35,607 bases of DNA from Lachnospiraceae bacterium (lineage in GTDB: Bacteria; Bacillota; Clostridia; Lachnospirales; Lachnospiraceae): positions 1 to 35,607 of the forward strand of contig JAFUFL010000048.1 in the NCBI GenBank assembly GCA_017469935.1. Direction: 5' to 3'. Within the stretch, counting starts at the first letter, position 1. Each line of letters starts with the position of its first letter. This document shows positions 21,561 to 25,397 of this stretch, one piece after another. The notes beneath the pieces are model-generated. The model ran no database searches. It had not been told where the DNA came from and saw only the letters and a program-made list of their open reading frames with translations. Made by a program: the position numbers and the translations under genes.

Positions 21561-21569
21561 GAGACAAAT

Positions 21570-21605
21570 GTGCCGCGGATCCCTCCGCGGCACTTCTCAT
21601 TTTTC
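21570..21605 (+). terminator. Terminator of yefM-yoeB (possibly shared with the pilus operon)
   Basis: GTGCCGCGGA (21570-21579) and TCCGCGGCAC form a 10-bp GC-rich hairpin with a tight loop, followed by TTCTCATTTTTC rightward. The convergent pilus operon ends at 21607, so the stem may also stop leftward transcripts, although the leftward T tract is poor. Confidence 0.78.
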
Positions 21606-21606
21606 T

Positions 21607-22347
21607 TTACTTGTTTCTGTTCTTCCGAACCATTCCGACGCAAAGCGCCAACACACCAACTCCTCCGAGTACCATCACAGGCCACCACAGCTGCCCTGTC
21701 TGAGGAAGCACCGGCGGCTTAGGCGGTGTCGGCGGCGGAACCTCTTCCTTTGCGACGCCGATCGGCTTCGCTTCCGCATCTACATCGTAGATGAGCGATC
21801 CGTCCGTACTCTTCTGCGGGATCGTGATCAGGAAAGGCGTAATGGCCAACTTATTATCTCCTGCCCCCTGCGCGTCCTGCTTTACCAGATACAGTCCCAC
21901 GCTCAGTCCGCCAAAAGATACCTTGCCCTGTGCATCCATCTCCGCCGGCGCCACGTCAAAAGCGTAACCCTCTGCGATCGCTGCCATCTGCTCCGCCAGC
22001 TCAAGATTCGCTGCGTCCAGCGCCGCATCCGTATCCGGGATCTCTCCCGCCCCGGCAAACCTCTCATCTGTCACGAATTTGAAACCGTTGTCCACGACTA
22101 CGTCCGCCACCTTGTAGAGGCCGACTGTATTTCCGCCGGTCACCGGCTTGGTCGTGCCCGAATTCTCATCATAATAAGTAAATGTGATCGAGATCGAACC
22201 GATATGGTCCGGATCAAGAATTTCCGCGTTCTCCGCCGCAGCTGCCGGGATAGATGTCAGAGGCATCACCAGGCTCATCGACAGAGCCAGGGCCGCTTTC
22301 GCGATCCCCTTGATTTTGTTTTTTAATCCTACTCTTTGCTTGTGCAT
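21607..22347 (-). CDS. Minor/basal LPXTG pilin
   Basis: 246 aa from the ATG at 22347. A signal peptide (MHKQRVGLKNKIKG then a hydrophobic core ending at AAAA-ENAE) is followed by a beta-rich pilin-like domain (GSISITFTYYDENSGTTKPV, GLYLVKQDAQG), a proline-rich linker (PPPTPPKPPV) and a sorting signal LPQTGQ (about 214-219) with a hydrophobic helix and KNRNK tail. The Pro-rich stalk before the sorting signal is typical of the basal pilin that anchors pili to the wall, as FctB does. An ATG at 22371 overlaps the sortase stop as ATGA, but AAGGGG lies 6-7 nt before the ATG at 22347, which also gives the better signal peptide. It is the last gene of the pilus operon. Confidence 0.88.
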   Translation of the reverse strand: MHKQRVGLKNKIKGIAKAALALSMSLVMPLTSIPAAAAENAEILDPDHIGSISITFTYYDENSGTTKPVTGGNTVGLYKVADVVVDNGFKFVTDERFAGAGEIPDTDAALDAANLELAEQMAAIAEGYAFDVAPAEMDAQGKVSFGGLSVGLYLVKQDAQGAGDNKLAITPFLITIPQKSTDGSLIYDVDAEAKPIGVAKEEVPPPTPPKPPVLPQTGQLWWPVMVLGGVGVLALCVGMVRKNRNK

Positions 22348-22367
22348 ATTTTGCCCCTTTCTGCGGC

Positions 22368-23393
22368 TCATTTCCTGCGTTTATCCATGAAGTTCTTAAC
22401 AGCTTCGATCACTACATCCGTATCTTCCGTCTCAAGTTCTGCTTCCTGAAGCCCGTTCTCTTCAAGGTACTCGTCTTTCAGATCCCTCTTTTTTTTTAAA
22501 TGACTCGCACTTGTGCTGATCAAAACATAGATCAGCAGCAGAAGAAGAATCGGTATCGCAACGAACGGTGCTATGAAGACCGGCCTGATCTGAATGGCGT
22601 CTGCCACCACCATCGCGTCTCCGTTCAGGTTGTCAATGCGGTGCGCCCGCACCAGCAGCCTGTGGGTATTGATGCCGTAAGGCGTGCAGGTGATCAGTGT
22701 GCAGTAATCTTTCCCGTCCTCAATGGTCAGGTGCGACAGATCCGAAGGCTCCACGATCCAGATGTGGTCCACCTCATAGGTCAGCGTCTCGTTCAGAATC
22801 GTCAATGTAAAAGTATCGCCTTCCCTGAGCTTGTCCAGATCCGTAAAGAGCCTTGCCGAAGGAAGCCCCCTGTGACCCGACAACATGCTGTGAGCACTTT
22901 CGCCTCCGACCGGCAGCGATGACTCTTCCAGATGTCCGATGGAAGTCTGCAGAACGTTCTCTTCCGTCCCATGATAAATAGGAAGCATTACATCAATTTT
23001 TTGAATCTTGATGTATCCCATGACGCCGTTTCCGCCGATGTCCAGCTCTGACATATATGCTTCTCTCTCTTCGTCGGTAAGCGTCCAGTTGATCCCTCTT
23101 TCAGCCAGCTCTGCGTTGTAGATTCTGGCTTCGTCGAGAATCCTCTCGTACTCCTCCGTGTTCATGTCGGCCACGTTCTCGGCGTAAGTCATGACTGCCC
23201 TTGACTGGTGGAAGGAGTTCCAGTAGTCCGCGATAGACGGATAGGCCAGAAGAAAAAGTCCTACAAACAACGCCACCAGAAGGATGATTGTAAACAACCG
23301 TTCCTTGATCCAGCGGACGACCGGGTTTCCGGATCTTGCGCTGCCATCACGGTTCGAGTATCCGCGGTCCGTATAGCTATTGTATGATTTCAT
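22368..23393 (-). CDS. srtC: Class C (pilin-polymerising) sortase
   Basis: 341 aa. Joins pilin subunits through isopeptide bonds at the outer membrane face. An N-terminal transmembrane segment (about 33-51) and a second one near the C-terminus (about 271-293) bracket the sortase domain, a class C hallmark. The catalytic set is present: His174 in SGHRG, Cys236 in TLITCTPYG and Arg245 in NTHRLLVR. The extended C-terminal tail (about 300-341) is unusually acidic and then basic. AAAGGA precedes the ATG. It lies between the major pilin and the minor pilin, the usual place for the polymerising enzyme. A class A housekeeping sortase is not in this window. Confidence 0.95.
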   Translation of the reverse strand: MKSYNSYTDRGYSNRDGSARSGNPVVRWIKERLFTIILLVALFVGLFLLAYPSIADYWNSFHQSRAVMTYAENVADMNTEEYERILDEARIYNAELAERGINWTLTDEEREAYMSELDIGGNGVMGYIKIQKIDVMLPIYHGTEENVLQTSIGHLEESSLPVGGESAHSMLSGHRGLPSARLFTDLDKLREGDTFTLTILNETLTYEVDHIWIVEPSDLSHLTIEDGKDYCTLITCTPYGINTHRLLVRAHRIDNLNGDAMVVADAIQIRPVFIAPFVAIPILLLLLIYVLISTSASHLKKKRDLKDEYLEENGLQEAELETEDTDVVIEAVKNFMDKRRK

Positions 23394-23552
23394 CTTGTTC
23401 CTTTATTCAATGTATATTTTGCTAAGCACGCAGATATCGCATTCTGTGTGTTTAGAAAAATATACATATACAAGTGTCAGATCTGAATCATTTACTCTTT
23501 TTCTGATAGATTCCTGGATTCTGAGCGATGTGAAATAGATGCCGGAATAGAA

Positions 23553-23581
23553 TTGACGCAGAACATTTGTTCTGATATCAT
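23553..23581 (+). promoter_or_regulatory. Promoter with LexA/SOS-box palindrome, opposite strand to the pilus genes
   Basis: -35 TTGACG (23553-23558), exactly 17 bp, -10 TATCAT (23576-23581). The spacer is almost filled by the perfect inverted repeat CAGAAC-ATTT-GTTCTG (23559-23574), whose core GAAC-N4-GTTC (23561-23572) matches the LexA (DinR) box of Gram-positive bacteria. Predicted transcription start near 23588, just before the inverted repeat at 23600. LexA control is inference from the motif and its placement. Confidence 0.65.
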
Positions 23582-23658
23582 AGAAGTGCTCGCAAGAGCA
23601 GAGGAGCACTGCTATAGCGCAGGCGGTTGACTATCTCCTTCGAAAGGAGGTGATATGT

Positions 23659-23724
23659 ATGCCAATTACTCTGACATTCCATGTGTTAGGCTTTACCTTC
23701 ACATTAAGAATTACGAGAAAATAG
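23659..23724 (+). CDS. 21-residue hydrophobic/basic peptide (candidate SOS-controlled type I toxin)
   Basis: The ATG at 23659 is 8 nt after AAAGGAGG (23643-23650), the strongest ribosome binding site in the window. The peptide begins MPITLTFHVLGF, alternates hydrophobic and Thr residues, and ends RITRK before TAG (23722-23724). CTCCTT (23635-23640) pairs with AAGGAG (23644-23649) around a 3-nt loop, so the ribosome binding site is locked in a hairpin. That is a frequent feature of type I toxin mRNAs. Another ATG at 23655 opens a 39-codon frame, but only 4 nt from the ribosome binding site. I do not recognise the peptide with certainty. It might be a membrane-acting toxin or a leader peptide. 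Confidence 0.6.
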   Translation: MPITLTFHVLGFTFTLRITRK

Positions 23725-23725
23725 C

Positions 23726-23757
23726 AACAACCGCCACTCGGCCAAGTGACGGTTGTT
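23726..23757. terminator. Bidirectional terminator-like hairpin after the micro-ORF
   Basis: AACAACCG-c-CACT (23726-23738) pairs with AGTG-a-CGGTTGTT (23745-23757), loop of 6 nt, one C-A mismatch. Rightward it is followed by TAGTAATT, leftward by GCTATTTTC; both tails are weak but U-containing. Its place two bases after the micro-ORF stop, and between two convergent promoters, suggests that it ends both RNAs. Confidence 0.6.
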
Positions 23758-23816
23758 TAGTAATTAAATAACCTAACGAAGTCAACCGCTTGTCGCAGTG
23801 CTCCTCTTTTACCGTC

Positions 23817-23845
23817 ATTTTAGCGTCAATATGTATTCTTGTCAA
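23817..23845 (-). promoter_or_regulatory. Convergent promoter facing the micro-ORF
   Basis: Leftward -35 TTGACA (23845-23840, consensus), a 17-bp spacer, -10 TAAAAT (23822-23817). Start near 23810, giving an RNA that begins AAAAGAGGAGCACTGC and reaches the hairpin at 23726-23757 after about 55-85 nt. It could make an antisense RNA to the 3' end of the micro-ORF transcript, or (on read-through) supply sortase and minor pilin mRNA. Confidence 0.62.
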
Positions 23846-23912
23846 TGTTCACATCCATGCTCTCCGGGTAGAATCCGGATCATATTCAAGTTTTTTTGTA
23901 ACTGCCCACCCC

Positions 23913-23936
23913 GGGCTCCGGCGAATGCCGGAGCCC
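23913..23936 (-). other. Strong stem-loop downstream of the major pilin gene
   Basis: GGGCTCCGGC (23913-23922) and GCCGGAGCCC (23927-23936) form a perfect 10-bp GC-rich hairpin with a GAAT/ATTC tetraloop. No T tract follows on either strand, so it is more likely an RNA-stabilising or partial-termination structure between the major pilin (ends 24024) and sortase genes than a standard terminator. Confidence 0.65.
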
Positions 23937-24023
23937 CTTCGAGTGTTCAGTTATGAAGGTATCCAGGAATAAAACCTGTCAATGAATACCTTTGTTTGTT
24001 TTATTTACATATTTGCTCTCAGA

Positions 24024-25397
24024 TTAGCGAGCCATTCTTCTCTTGGAGATCAGAACAACTGCTGCACCGATCACGAGGACGGAGCCAACGATGTAGAACA
24101 TTGTTGTGCCGATGCCGCCGGTGGAAGGAAGAACGGAACCAGACTGGTTTTCAACGCTGATTTCTGCGGCTGCAGTTGCGTCTTTTGTTACCGTAACAGC
24201 AACTCTTGTAGCAAGCTTGTTGTAGCCGGCAGGAACAGTTGTCTCTTCCAGATAGTAGGTGCCGGGAGCAAGACCTCTGATATTTGCACCATCAGCACTT
24301 TCGATCATGATCTCTGCATCAGCGGTTGTATCTACATAGTAGCCGGTATCATCTTTGGCAACCTTGATCTGATTTCCGCCTGTAGCTGCATCATACAGTT
24401 TGAAGCCTGCGCCTGCGAGGAATTTCTGAGTTGTAGCATCTACTTTCTTTACCTGAACATCGTATGTCTTAACATCTGTGTGGTCTTCTTCGTGCTGCTT
24501 GGAGTAATCGATTGTCCATGTATTAGGTGTCAGCTGACGGATCGGAATGTCTTTAGTGATTACTGCGCTATACTCGATCATGATTACATCGTTTTCCTTA
24601 AGAGTTTTGATATAATCAGCCTTAAATACGATCGTAAAGCCTGTGTCTGTTGCATTCAGAGTGTAGTTTGCAGCGTCAACATCTGTTCCACCTACTTTTA
24701 CGGTGATATTTCCATCAGCATGGTTCAGCTTAAGACCGGTAGAGAGAGTATCAGTACCTTTGATCTCGTAGTTAGCACCTTTGCCGATTTTGATTTCAGC
24801 ATCGTAGTAAACTGTATCGCCGATACCCTTATCGAGTTGATCATTAGCATATGTACCTGCTTCTGCTCCCTGCTTCTTGTCAGGAGTAGTGACTGTGTTC
24901 TTTTCAACTACAGTGGCAATTTCGGAATCCTCGTGCAGTGCGCACAGAGAACCTGCGGTAGAGGTTACGAAATAATATCCGGTTGCAAGGTCAGTAAAGT
25001 TTGCGGAGCCATTTGCGCCGGTAGCTGTCTTCTTTCCAAGGGCATCTCCCAAATCTTCAACATGGGCGCCAAGATATTCAGCGGCTGCGGCTGCATCCAA
25101 CGTGTCGCCATTATTAACAACATACTGTGTACCATCTGCAGAAGGTGTAAACTTAAAGCCAGCTGCCACAAGAACAGAACCAATTGCTGTATACTCATCA
25201 CTAGTCAGATAGTAAGAAACTGCACGCTCTTCTCCTGTCTTACCATTATCTGAATAGTTCAAGATCTTGTAAGCTGTGTAGGTTTCGCCGTCAATAACAT
25301 CCTTTACTTCGATGCTTGCTGCAAATACGTTGATGCTCATCGCCATAACCATAACGGTTGCAAGAAGCAGAGCAACAATCTTCTTCATGTTCTTCAT
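24024..25397 (-). CDS. Major fimbrial shaft pilin (SpaH/EbpB-like, isopeptide-forming, LPXTG)
   Basis: 457 aa. A signal peptide (MKNMKKIVALLLATVMVMAM, cleaved near FAA-SIEV) is followed by an N-terminal pilin domain, a fimbrial isopeptide-forming domain (residues about 185-310, with GDTVYYDAEIKIGKGANYEI and IMIEYSAVI) and a C-terminal Cna-B/SpaA domain (about 318-420) whose E-box-like stretch YYLEETTVPAGYN is conserved. A sorting signal LPSTGG begins near residue 423, with a hydrophobic helix and SKRRMAR tail. The Lys used for polymerisation is probably in VVEKNTVTTPDKK, though the classical YPKN pilin motif is not obvious. AAAGGAAG precedes the ATG. It forms the pilus shaft, polymerised by the adjacent sortase. 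Confidence 0.93.
   Translation of the reverse strand: MKNMKKIVALLLATVMVMAMSINVFAASIEVKDVIDGETYTAYKILNYSDNGKTGEERAVSYYLTSDEYTAIGSVLVAAGFKFTPSADGTQYVVNNGDTLDAAAAAEYLGAHVEDLGDALGKKTATGANGSANFTDLATGYYFVTSTAGSLCALHEDSEIATVVEKNTVTTPDKKQGAEAGTYANDQLDKGIGDTVYYDAEIKIGKGANYEIKGTDTLSTGLKLNHADGNITVKVGGTDVDAANYTLNATDTGFTIVFKADYIKTLKENDVIMIEYSAVITKDIPIRQLTPNTWTIDYSKQHEEDHTDVKTYDVQVKKVDATTQKFLAGAGFKLYDAATGGNQIKVAKDDTGYYVDTTADAEIMIESADGANIRGLAPGTYYLEETTVPAGYNKLATRVAVTVTKDATAAAEISVENQSGSVLPSTGGIGTTMFYIVGSVLVIGAAVVLISKRRMAR

Follow-up and report, generated by a model that had tools for sequence, protein, structure and literature searches.

A type I toxin-antitoxin-like cassette with predicted SOS control in a Lachnospiraceae pilus locus

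Results

The cassette and its family

The window, meaning the whole stretch of 35,607 nucleotides analysed here, contains a pilus locus in which a small cassette is flanked by two minus-strand genes, one for an LPXTG pilin and one for a sortase. The features of the cassette are listed in Table 1. A first-pass annotation of the same DNA had proposed a TTGACG-N17-TATCAT promoter with a LexA-box palindrome in its spacer and a convergent TTGACA-N17-TAAAAT promoter, and both were found as described. It had also reported perfect inverted repeats of 13 and 9 bp. The first repeat (23600-23612 with 23795-23807) is indeed 13 nt long and perfect, and the second (23620-23632 with 23780-23792), which contains the 9 bp claimed, is itself 13 nt long with one mismatch.

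Table 1. Features of the cassette, with positions in the window, and related sites
Feature	Position	Strand	Remarks
Segment present here, missing from a same-genus pilus locus	23468..23869		402 bp; flanks match G063:C13
Toxin (sense) promoter TTGACG-N17-TATCAT	23553..23581	+	-35 at 23553-23558, -10 at 23576-23581; 10 of 12 consensus bases
LexA (SOS) box GAACATTTGTTC	23561..23572		Within the promoter spacer; predicted
5' hairpin GCTC-gcaa-GAGC near the mRNA start	23588..23599	+	In many other copies the 5' hairpin differs in sequence
Clamp, leader half (X): AGAGGAGCACTGC and CAGGCGGTTGACT	23600..23632	+	From repeats, folding and covariation
Shine-Dalgarno (SD) hairpin ATCTCCTT...AAGGAGGTGAT	23633..23654	+	Hides the SD AAAGGAGG (23643-23650); predicted
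Peptide ORF MPITLTFHVLGFTFTLRITRK	23659..23724	+	21 codons plus TAG; shortened form of the 25-29 aa ...SNNRHSAK family
Predicted antisense (antitoxin) RNA, about 94 nt	23717..23810	-	5' part nearly copies the toxin leader
Central hairpin, read as antisense terminator	23726..23757	-	GGTTGTTGCTATTTT on the minus strand
Clamp, 3' half (X*): AGTCAACCGCTTG and GCAGTGCTCCTCT	23780..23807	+	Complementary to the antisense RNA in its 5' part
Antisense promoter TTGACA-N17-TAAAAT	23817..23845	-	-35 at 23845-23840, -10 at 23822-23817; 11 of 12 consensus bases
Other pilus-linked cassettes			L029, L049, L057, L059, L068 (= G010) and L071 (= G027), 6 of 65 named stretches; plus G076

The search for homologues that the annotation had proposed yielded a conserved family of 74 copies, including the window, with 53 distinct peptides. 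The record titles mostly name Lachnospiraceae or other Clostridia; one is a Gastranaerophilales MAG and one a plain 'bacterium'. A DNA search gave matches, some of them weak, in 15 of 61 genomes, the source genome included, and 65 stretches were obtained when named genome contigs were scanned with a pattern. The scan pattern fixed letters of the SD and of the hairpin read as the antisense terminator and left the reading frame, the promoters, the clamp, the LexA box and the peptide core free, so conservation of the fixed letters is no evidence. One genome (G019) carries a tandem array of four full copies and a fragment. With a covariance model of the antisense RNA, matches were obtained in 17 of the 62 genus genomes and in 12 of 392 genomes taken as a sample of the order; the source genome is counted in both sets. 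Among the 27 places matched in the genus, 13 have an intact leader plus ORF and 14 do not (judged by a regular expression; one masked), and many copies therefore decay. No Rfam match above the gathering score was obtained for seven loci covering both peptide classes described below, the window giving sub-threshold matches only. The cassette had no match among plasmid sequences, a phage search returned one unannotated metagenomic record of 4.5 kb, and two SNNRHSAK-type patterns had no match in viral contigs. At one locus (L144, at G303:C39) two copies of a diverged variant, MRITLHIFEFTITIIVKQRKNRHSI and MRITFHIFEFTITIIVKQRKNRHSAK, stand in tandem, with NRHS of the tail retained.

Promoters and the LexA box

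The best sense promoter matched at least 11 of 12 consensus bases in 36 of 69 copies, compared with 1 of 345 mononucleotide shuffles, and the best antisense promoter reached the same score in 69 of 73 copies, compared with 1 of 365 such shuffles. An exact GAAC-N4-GTTC box was found in 8 of 69 upstream regions, in each case within the spacer that separates -35 from -10 and at an unchanged register, and L087 has a box with two mismatches at the same place of the promoter. No exact box occurred in 20 dinucleotide shuffles of each upstream region or in the 68 antisense flanks. The other 61 copies, every full tandem copy of G019 among them, are without an exact box, and so are the 33 cassettes from the antisense-model and leader-pattern matches described below.

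GAACN4GTTC is the LexA operator of Bacillus subtilis according to the passages cited (PMC4234289, PMC8270828). In the source genome, recA has an exact box, GAACAAACGTTC, and lexA has two boxes with one mismatch each: GAACATTTATTC, which differs from the cassette box at one base of twelve, and GAACATTCATTC. The cassette thus has at its promoter a GAAC-N4-GTTC operator of the type common to recA and lexA, and the toxin promoter of the window copy is predicted to be under SOS (LexA) control, in agreement with the earlier annotation.

The predicted mRNA fold and antisense RNA

The mRNA predicted for the window folds at -87.8 kcal/mol, against a shuffle mean of -53.8 kcal/mol (z -7.7), and none of 200 dinucleotide shuffles of the window segment folded as well. 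Clamp pairing at no fewer than 10 of 13 positions was present in 65 of 68 complete cassettes and failed in three. One end pair of the clamp uses C-G, U-A and G-C in 35, 16 and 7 copies, respectively. An alignment (A1) was made of 58 of the 68 complete cassettes, the ten omitted including some with degenerate or truncated leaders. In its consensus structure 97.4% of the cells are paired, compared with 93.4% when shuffled, a value already high because most alignment columns hardly vary, and 30-48% when slid. In the same 58 cassettes, 56 cells are changed on both sides, compared with 14.4 in shuffles. A further alignment (A2) comprises 44 of the 68. Clamp deviations read on the mRNA strand are G.U in 43 and A.C in 20 cases with a fixed G.U column excluded, and a cruder wobble count gave 248 G.U against 65 A.C, these cells not being independent of each other. 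The excess of G.U over A.C therefore favours pairing within the mRNA strand. Whether or not the 3' arm is included, 65 of 68 folds give the SD a predicted unpaired probability of 0.34 or lower. The mRNA is thus predicted to fold back through a covarying clamp between its 5' and 3' ends.

A terminator-like hairpin at most about 40 nt from the antisense -35 and beyond X* was seen in 12 of 73 copies, a count that has no shuffled control; it supports an mRNA that reaches X*. In the window copy no terminator-like site was found beyond X*. The hairpin directly after the stop codon, which had been annotated as terminator-like, is present and looks built to end the antisense RNA instead of the peptide mRNA, since the U-run and a G.U pair lie on the minus strand and a C.A mismatch on the plus strand.

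The antisense RNA would have its own promoter and terminator, as type I systems do, a statement made at the level of sequence only. Because X* is the complement of its 5' end, the antisense RNA opens with a near copy of the mRNA leader. By its geometry it overlaps the ORF tail in those copies that have a tail, and full overlap with the mRNA requires that the mRNA reads through the central hairpin. At L101, L102, L104, L111 and L113 the antisense RNA sequence is kept and the leader or the peptide start is lost; these places, found with a model of the antisense RNA alone, are possible orphan antitoxin RNAs or recycled terminators.

The peptide

The annotated 21-codon ORF with a hidden SD is present, the SD lying in a predicted hairpin, but its length is peculiar to the window copy. 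The other peptides are 25-29 aa long and run through a tail in which SNNRHS is followed by A, G or D and then by K or Q. Between the ATG and the tail, each of the 62 other distinct ORFs has a number of bases divisible by three, and the window alone has 64. Close to the tail junction the window copy contains an additional T, which changes AAA AGC into AAA TAG, so that the tail is lost; this T also interrupts the antisense U-run. Lacking the SNNRHSAK tail, the window copy may be less effective or differ in its effect.

For 61 distinct ORFs in three length groups, the window ORF being excluded for its odd length, pN/pS in the annotated frame was 0.35, 0.45 and 0.13, compared with 0.93-3.22 in the other two frames, both of which also contain stops. 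None of 100 column shuffles in each length group gave a pN/pS as low as observed. Silent changes are thus in excess, as the annotation had asked of a genuine system, and judged from these codons the peptide frame is protein-coding and under purifying selection. An alternative frame from ATG 23654, 38 codons long in the window, was rejected on account of the stops and the high pN/pS of the other frames across relatives.

Hydrophobic and polar residues alternate in the peptide core, and there is no long hydrophobic stretch. The beta-strand moment exceeded that of shuffles in three of four members (p = 0.003, 0.003 and 0.025; 0.055 in the fourth). The maximal 15-residue Kyte-Doolittle value was 0.9-1.4 in four members, compared with 2.6-3.1 in three holin-type peptides. 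A further alignment (A3) comprises 54 of 64 distinct ORFs. YrzI (PF09501) was matched by 14 of 54 members at E of 1 or less, the best at 0.0079; the one member with a score shown reached 15.1 bits against the Pfam gathering cut-off of 23. None of the 54 SNNRHSAK-type peptides matched Hol_Tox, and no Fst match was obtained in NCBIfam (four peptides) or Pfam. The earlier view that the peptide fits no named family therefore stands, the YrzI matches being below threshold. Because it has no recognised relative and no long hydrophobic stretch, the peptide need not be a toxin. The string SNNRHSA was not found in the literature searched. A sequence search of the Protein Data Bank gave three matches, the best with E 0.0053 over 11 residues of designed proteins, and these were read as chance.

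One RNA framework with different peptides

A second family (f19) was matched by the antisense model with E values of 3e-5 to 8e-4 per genome, with several matches per genome in two genomes. Its cassettes are alike in leader, hairpins, X* and antisense layout, and the peptide differs, an example being the holin-like MSISETFIVIFAAMTFVIALITLMIYIIDTFLKKK. By eye, 10 of the 11 antisense-model matches have the same leader; the eleventh is cut by a contig end. The f19 cassettes were found without use of the leader pattern, which fixes about half of the leader and does not match the window's own. Within the order, 15 of 392 genomes contain this pattern, at 32 places in all, and a reversed control gave no match. 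In 391 genomes sampled class-wide there was no match in the 372 outside the order, the sole match being a genome of the same order. Of 28 leader-pattern peptides, 19 matched Pfam Hol_Tox (best E 7.6e-6) and 10 NCBIfam PepG1 (best E 4.7e-4) at E of 1 or less, the two Hol_Tox scores shown being below the cut-off.

Between the two peptide classes, the leaders are identical at up to 40 of 43 positions (best of 74 partners, gaps aside), with a median of 88% over 25, values that are raised because the pattern fixes about half of the leader. The peptides of the two classes do not align. In 33 cassettes from the antisense-model and leader-pattern matches, two of them of the NRHS type, pairing between the leader and the 3' region averaged 13.4, compared with 8.0 when shuffled. 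An antisense promoter with at least 11 of 12 consensus bases was present in only 12 of these 33 (31 are without an NRHS peptide), compared with 1 of 165 shuffles. This framework held in common with holin-like peptides is the strongest argument from sequence for regarding the window cassette as type I toxin-antitoxin-like.

Setting in pilus loci and the empty site

At eight sites, the window and seven others (Table 1), a cassette has pilin or sortase homologues no more than 2.5 kb away, and at all eight the toxin ORF is antiparallel to the pilus genes. In L057, a Mogibacterium record, the order sortase-cassette-pilin is identical to that of the window. L223 is named as one of the seven others. 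Of the nearest left neighbours, 3 of 58 contain sortase domains, and of the nearest right neighbours, 4 of 59 contain SpaA or pilin-backbone domains; in each case these are among the commonest domains on that side, and the remainder is diverse. The neighbour sets (A5 and A6, with 59 and 58 distinct proteins) follow a crude nearest-long-ORF rule and leave out a right neighbour of 2301 aa (L027) and a few repeats from tandem copies.

Contig C13 of the same-genus genome G063 matches the flanks 21564-23467 and 23870-24131 and has about 3 nt between them. The DNA of the pilus locus is 95.6% and 96.2% identical between G063 and the window on the two sides of the segment, and the antisense covariance model gave no match in G063. 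In the pilus loci L188-L190, which are more distant than G063, the gap is shortened correspondingly, so that the 402-bp segment is missing from all four of the nearest pilus loci looked at. Neither a target duplication nor terminal repeats were seen at the G063 empty site, and the source genome holds one copy of the cassette. Since cassettes were found at other pilus loci too, the empty site may reflect a gain in the window lineage or a loss in G063; the four nearest loci favour a gain.

Two further structures were observed in the DNA around the cassette. An inverted repeat at 23410-23467, just upstream of the sortase gene, has 25-nt arms that are 88% complementary and a loop of 8 nt. It is also present at G063:C13, with a diverged form near a second sortase match at G063:C40, and the 402-bp segment starts at its outer end. 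A GC-rich hairpin at 23912-23936, between the pilin gene and the cassette, is kept in the genome with the empty site and resembles a terminator or processing site for the minus-strand pilus genes.

Discussion

Proposed mode of action

The cassette is best explained as a type I toxin-antitoxin-like cassette under SOS control, a reading to which we give a probability of about three in four on the sequence evidence. This agrees in kind with the first-pass annotation, and the mechanism is refined. The peptide of the window cassette is unusual and beta-strand-like, and its role as a toxin is putative. The box and its register predict that LexA, sitting in the spacer of the promoter, would repress transcription of the peptide mRNA and that DNA damage would lift this repression. 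With the SD in a hairpin and the 5' leader clamped to the 3' end, structures supported by covariation and folding, the mRNA would be poorly translated as made. The convergent promoter, conserved like the leader and the terminator, would give rise to an antisense RNA of about 94 nt, ending in the hairpin that overlaps the ORF end of other copies. By pairing with the 3' arm in place of the leader, the 5' end of this RNA could then draw the 3' half of the mRNA into a duplex, open to RNase III or blocking translation. The geometry of this displacement step comes from the sequence, and its mechanism is modelled on Gram-positive type I systems with a 3' overlap. Once the mRNA made under SOS exceeds the antisense RNA, translation would yield a short cationic peptide that is amphipathic as a beta strand and may slow growth at the membrane or by self-assembly.

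Alternative readings

In another reading the cassette is not a toxin system but an SOS gene under antisense control, with a peptide that serves, for example, as a regulator, a signal or a stress protein, so that it would resemble a type I pair in its working only. The low hydrophobicity of the peptide (0.9-1.4 against 2.6-3.1 on the Kyte-Doolittle scale) and the fact that its sole family echo, YrzI, is below the cut-off agree with such a role. The same RNA framework, however, carries holin-like peptides in relatives, and the tandem copies, the patchy spread over 17 of 62 genus genomes and the frequent decay fit a toxin-antitoxin module better than a housekeeping gene, which makes a non-toxin unlikely. 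Somewhat more weight is due to the possibility that the family is a type I system and the window locus a remnant of it with a tail spoiled by the extra base. The window ORF is out of frame with a tail kept by all 62 other distinct ORFs, and the antisense U-run is interrupted by the same base, but the promoters, the LexA box, the clamp, the SD hairpin and the whole peptide core of the window are intact, and decay is entertained here tentatively, as a minority view. That the LexA box is coincidental and the toxin promoter constitutive is improbable: 61 of 69 copies, including all full G019 tandem copies, do without an exact box, yet the eight boxes occupy the same promoter position, none arose in shuffles or antisense flanks, and the box resembles those of recA and lexA.

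Two readings concern the place of the cassette in the genome. A functional tie to pilus loci, for example by stabilising them or by transcription fed from the antisense promoter, which points toward the sortase gene, would suit the antiparallel orientation at eight of eight sites and the gene order of L057. Most copies are nevertheless elsewhere, with sortases in 3 of 58 left and pilins in 4 of 59 right neighbours, and the cassette is missing from the four nearest relatives of the window pilus locus; we consider such a tie quite unlikely, if a shade less so than a coincidental box. The earlier annotation had also considered a MITE-like origin, that is, a non-autonomous element whose inverted repeats are transposon ends and whose promoters and ORF are incidental. 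The absence of the 402-bp segment from four of four nearest pilus loci and the many different genes that adjoin copies, some of them in tandem, are what an element of this kind would produce. The inverted repeats are internal to the segment and not at its ends, though, the empty site has no target duplication or terminal repeat, and there is one genomic copy. As the repeats also covary as an RNA helix, the ORF is under selection at the codon level and both promoters are conserved, this origin is hardly credible, and the suggestion is given up.

Comparison with known systems

The fst/par systems, pAD1 par and its chromosomal homologues, share with the cassette the convergent promoters and a hairpin between them, an SD-sequestering stem-loop, a 5' helix in the toxin mRNA and a small peptide, and in par the repeats are direct and RNA II pairs through them with the toxin mRNA leader, as far as described in the part of the source cited (PMC7472228). 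The parallel that the annotation drew to par therefore holds for the convergent promoters and the sequestering stem-loop but not for the repeats, the peptide or the pairing scheme. Whereas the par repeats are direct and its two RNAs complementary, the repeats of the cassette are inverted, its RNAs have nearly the same 5' sequence and its mRNA folds back; because of this inversion, the antisense RNA cannot pair with the leader as par RNA II does. In addition, the cassette peptide has no Fst match, and the antisense RNA overlaps the ORF tail in other cassette copies. The toxin mRNA of hok/sok contains 5'-3' fold-back elements. It likewise first folds into an inactive, untranslated form in the account cited (PMC7472228), but its peptide is unrelated and its antisense RNA differently placed.

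Among LexA-controlled systems, tisB/istR-1 of E. coli, as well as dinQ/agrB and symE/symR, combine a LexA-controlled toxin and a short peptide with an antitoxin RNA in the sections cited (PMC4147584, PMC8309996, PMC11264685). The LexA box on the toxin promoter and the short peptide bear out the annotated parallel to tisB/istR; the placement of the antitoxin does not, since the divergent istR-1 blocks a standby site upstream, whereas the cassette antisense RNA is convergent, at the 3' side. In yonT/SR6, bsrG/SR4 and txpA/RatA of B. subtilis the antitoxin RNA is at the 3' end of the toxin mRNA, as it is here, and SR4 has a long-distance effect that alters the SD region of bsrG; the parts of the sources cited describe no inverted-repeat leader mimicry for these systems (PMC4147584, PMC8270828). 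Their toxins are unrelated, and a predicted SOS box of yonT, with one mismatch, lies 320 bases upstream according to the section cited (PMC8270828), far from the promoter and not in it as in the cassette. While tisB, dinQ and symE of E. coli are LexA-controlled, this predicted yonT box is the only Gram-positive counterpart in the literature searched, as far as the part cited goes (PMC8270828).

With YrzI the cassette peptide shares a short strand motif rich in T, I and F, but the matches are weak and below the cut-off where a score was shown. The Hol_Tox/PepG1-type toxins of Firmicutes are related through the RNA, as relatives carry such peptides on the leader, clamp and antisense layout of the cassette; the cassette peptide itself is unrelated to them and amphipathic as a beta strand, not a membrane helix. 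Because the defining features of fst/par, tisB and YrzI were looked for and not found, the cassette is filed as type I toxin-antitoxin-like and not under any of these. If the reading is correct, it would add a class of toxin peptides that are not membrane helices, an antitoxin RNA whose action depends on its likeness to the target's leader, and a clear LexA-controlled type I system outside E. coli-like bacteria. It would also allow SOS-linked growth control to be tested in commensals of the gut and rumen.

Possible exchange of peptide cargo on one RNA

The framework common to the two peptide classes suggests that peptide cargo has been exchanged on one RNA; alternatively, the two classes may have a common ancestor and peptides that have since diverged to an extreme degree. 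By a narrow balance we favour a broader proposal, in which the RNA framework (leader, SD hairpin, clamp and leader-mimicking antisense RNA) would be an interchangeable type I toxin chassis in the order, its cargo swapped between holin-like peptides and a beta-strand-like class, M[P/R]IT...T.T...KSNNRHSAK. One branch would be under LexA, with an antitoxin that copies the 5' end of the toxin mRNA, and some copies would lie between pilin and sortase genes. If this is true, it would be evidence that type I systems evolve by swaps of peptide cargo on a conserved RNA chassis.

The leader pattern also precedes further unlike peptides at L148, L152 and L168, for example MLLFCDLLYLIAVCVMAYVALANRIDSKAKSKRRPPGKGKRR, and there are perhaps more cargo classes. 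In viral contigs it matched 16 stretches, some of them with holin-type peptides. A product recurring at the viral places L172-L175, L183 and the truncated L178, MGYVEILRGGPYLER..., was read as an unrelated coincidence. At L170 and L184, both in viral contigs, leader-like sequence stands before basic-hydrophobic peptides such as MGNGRWVKALRLLLHIIATLAVVFCMIPKVC.
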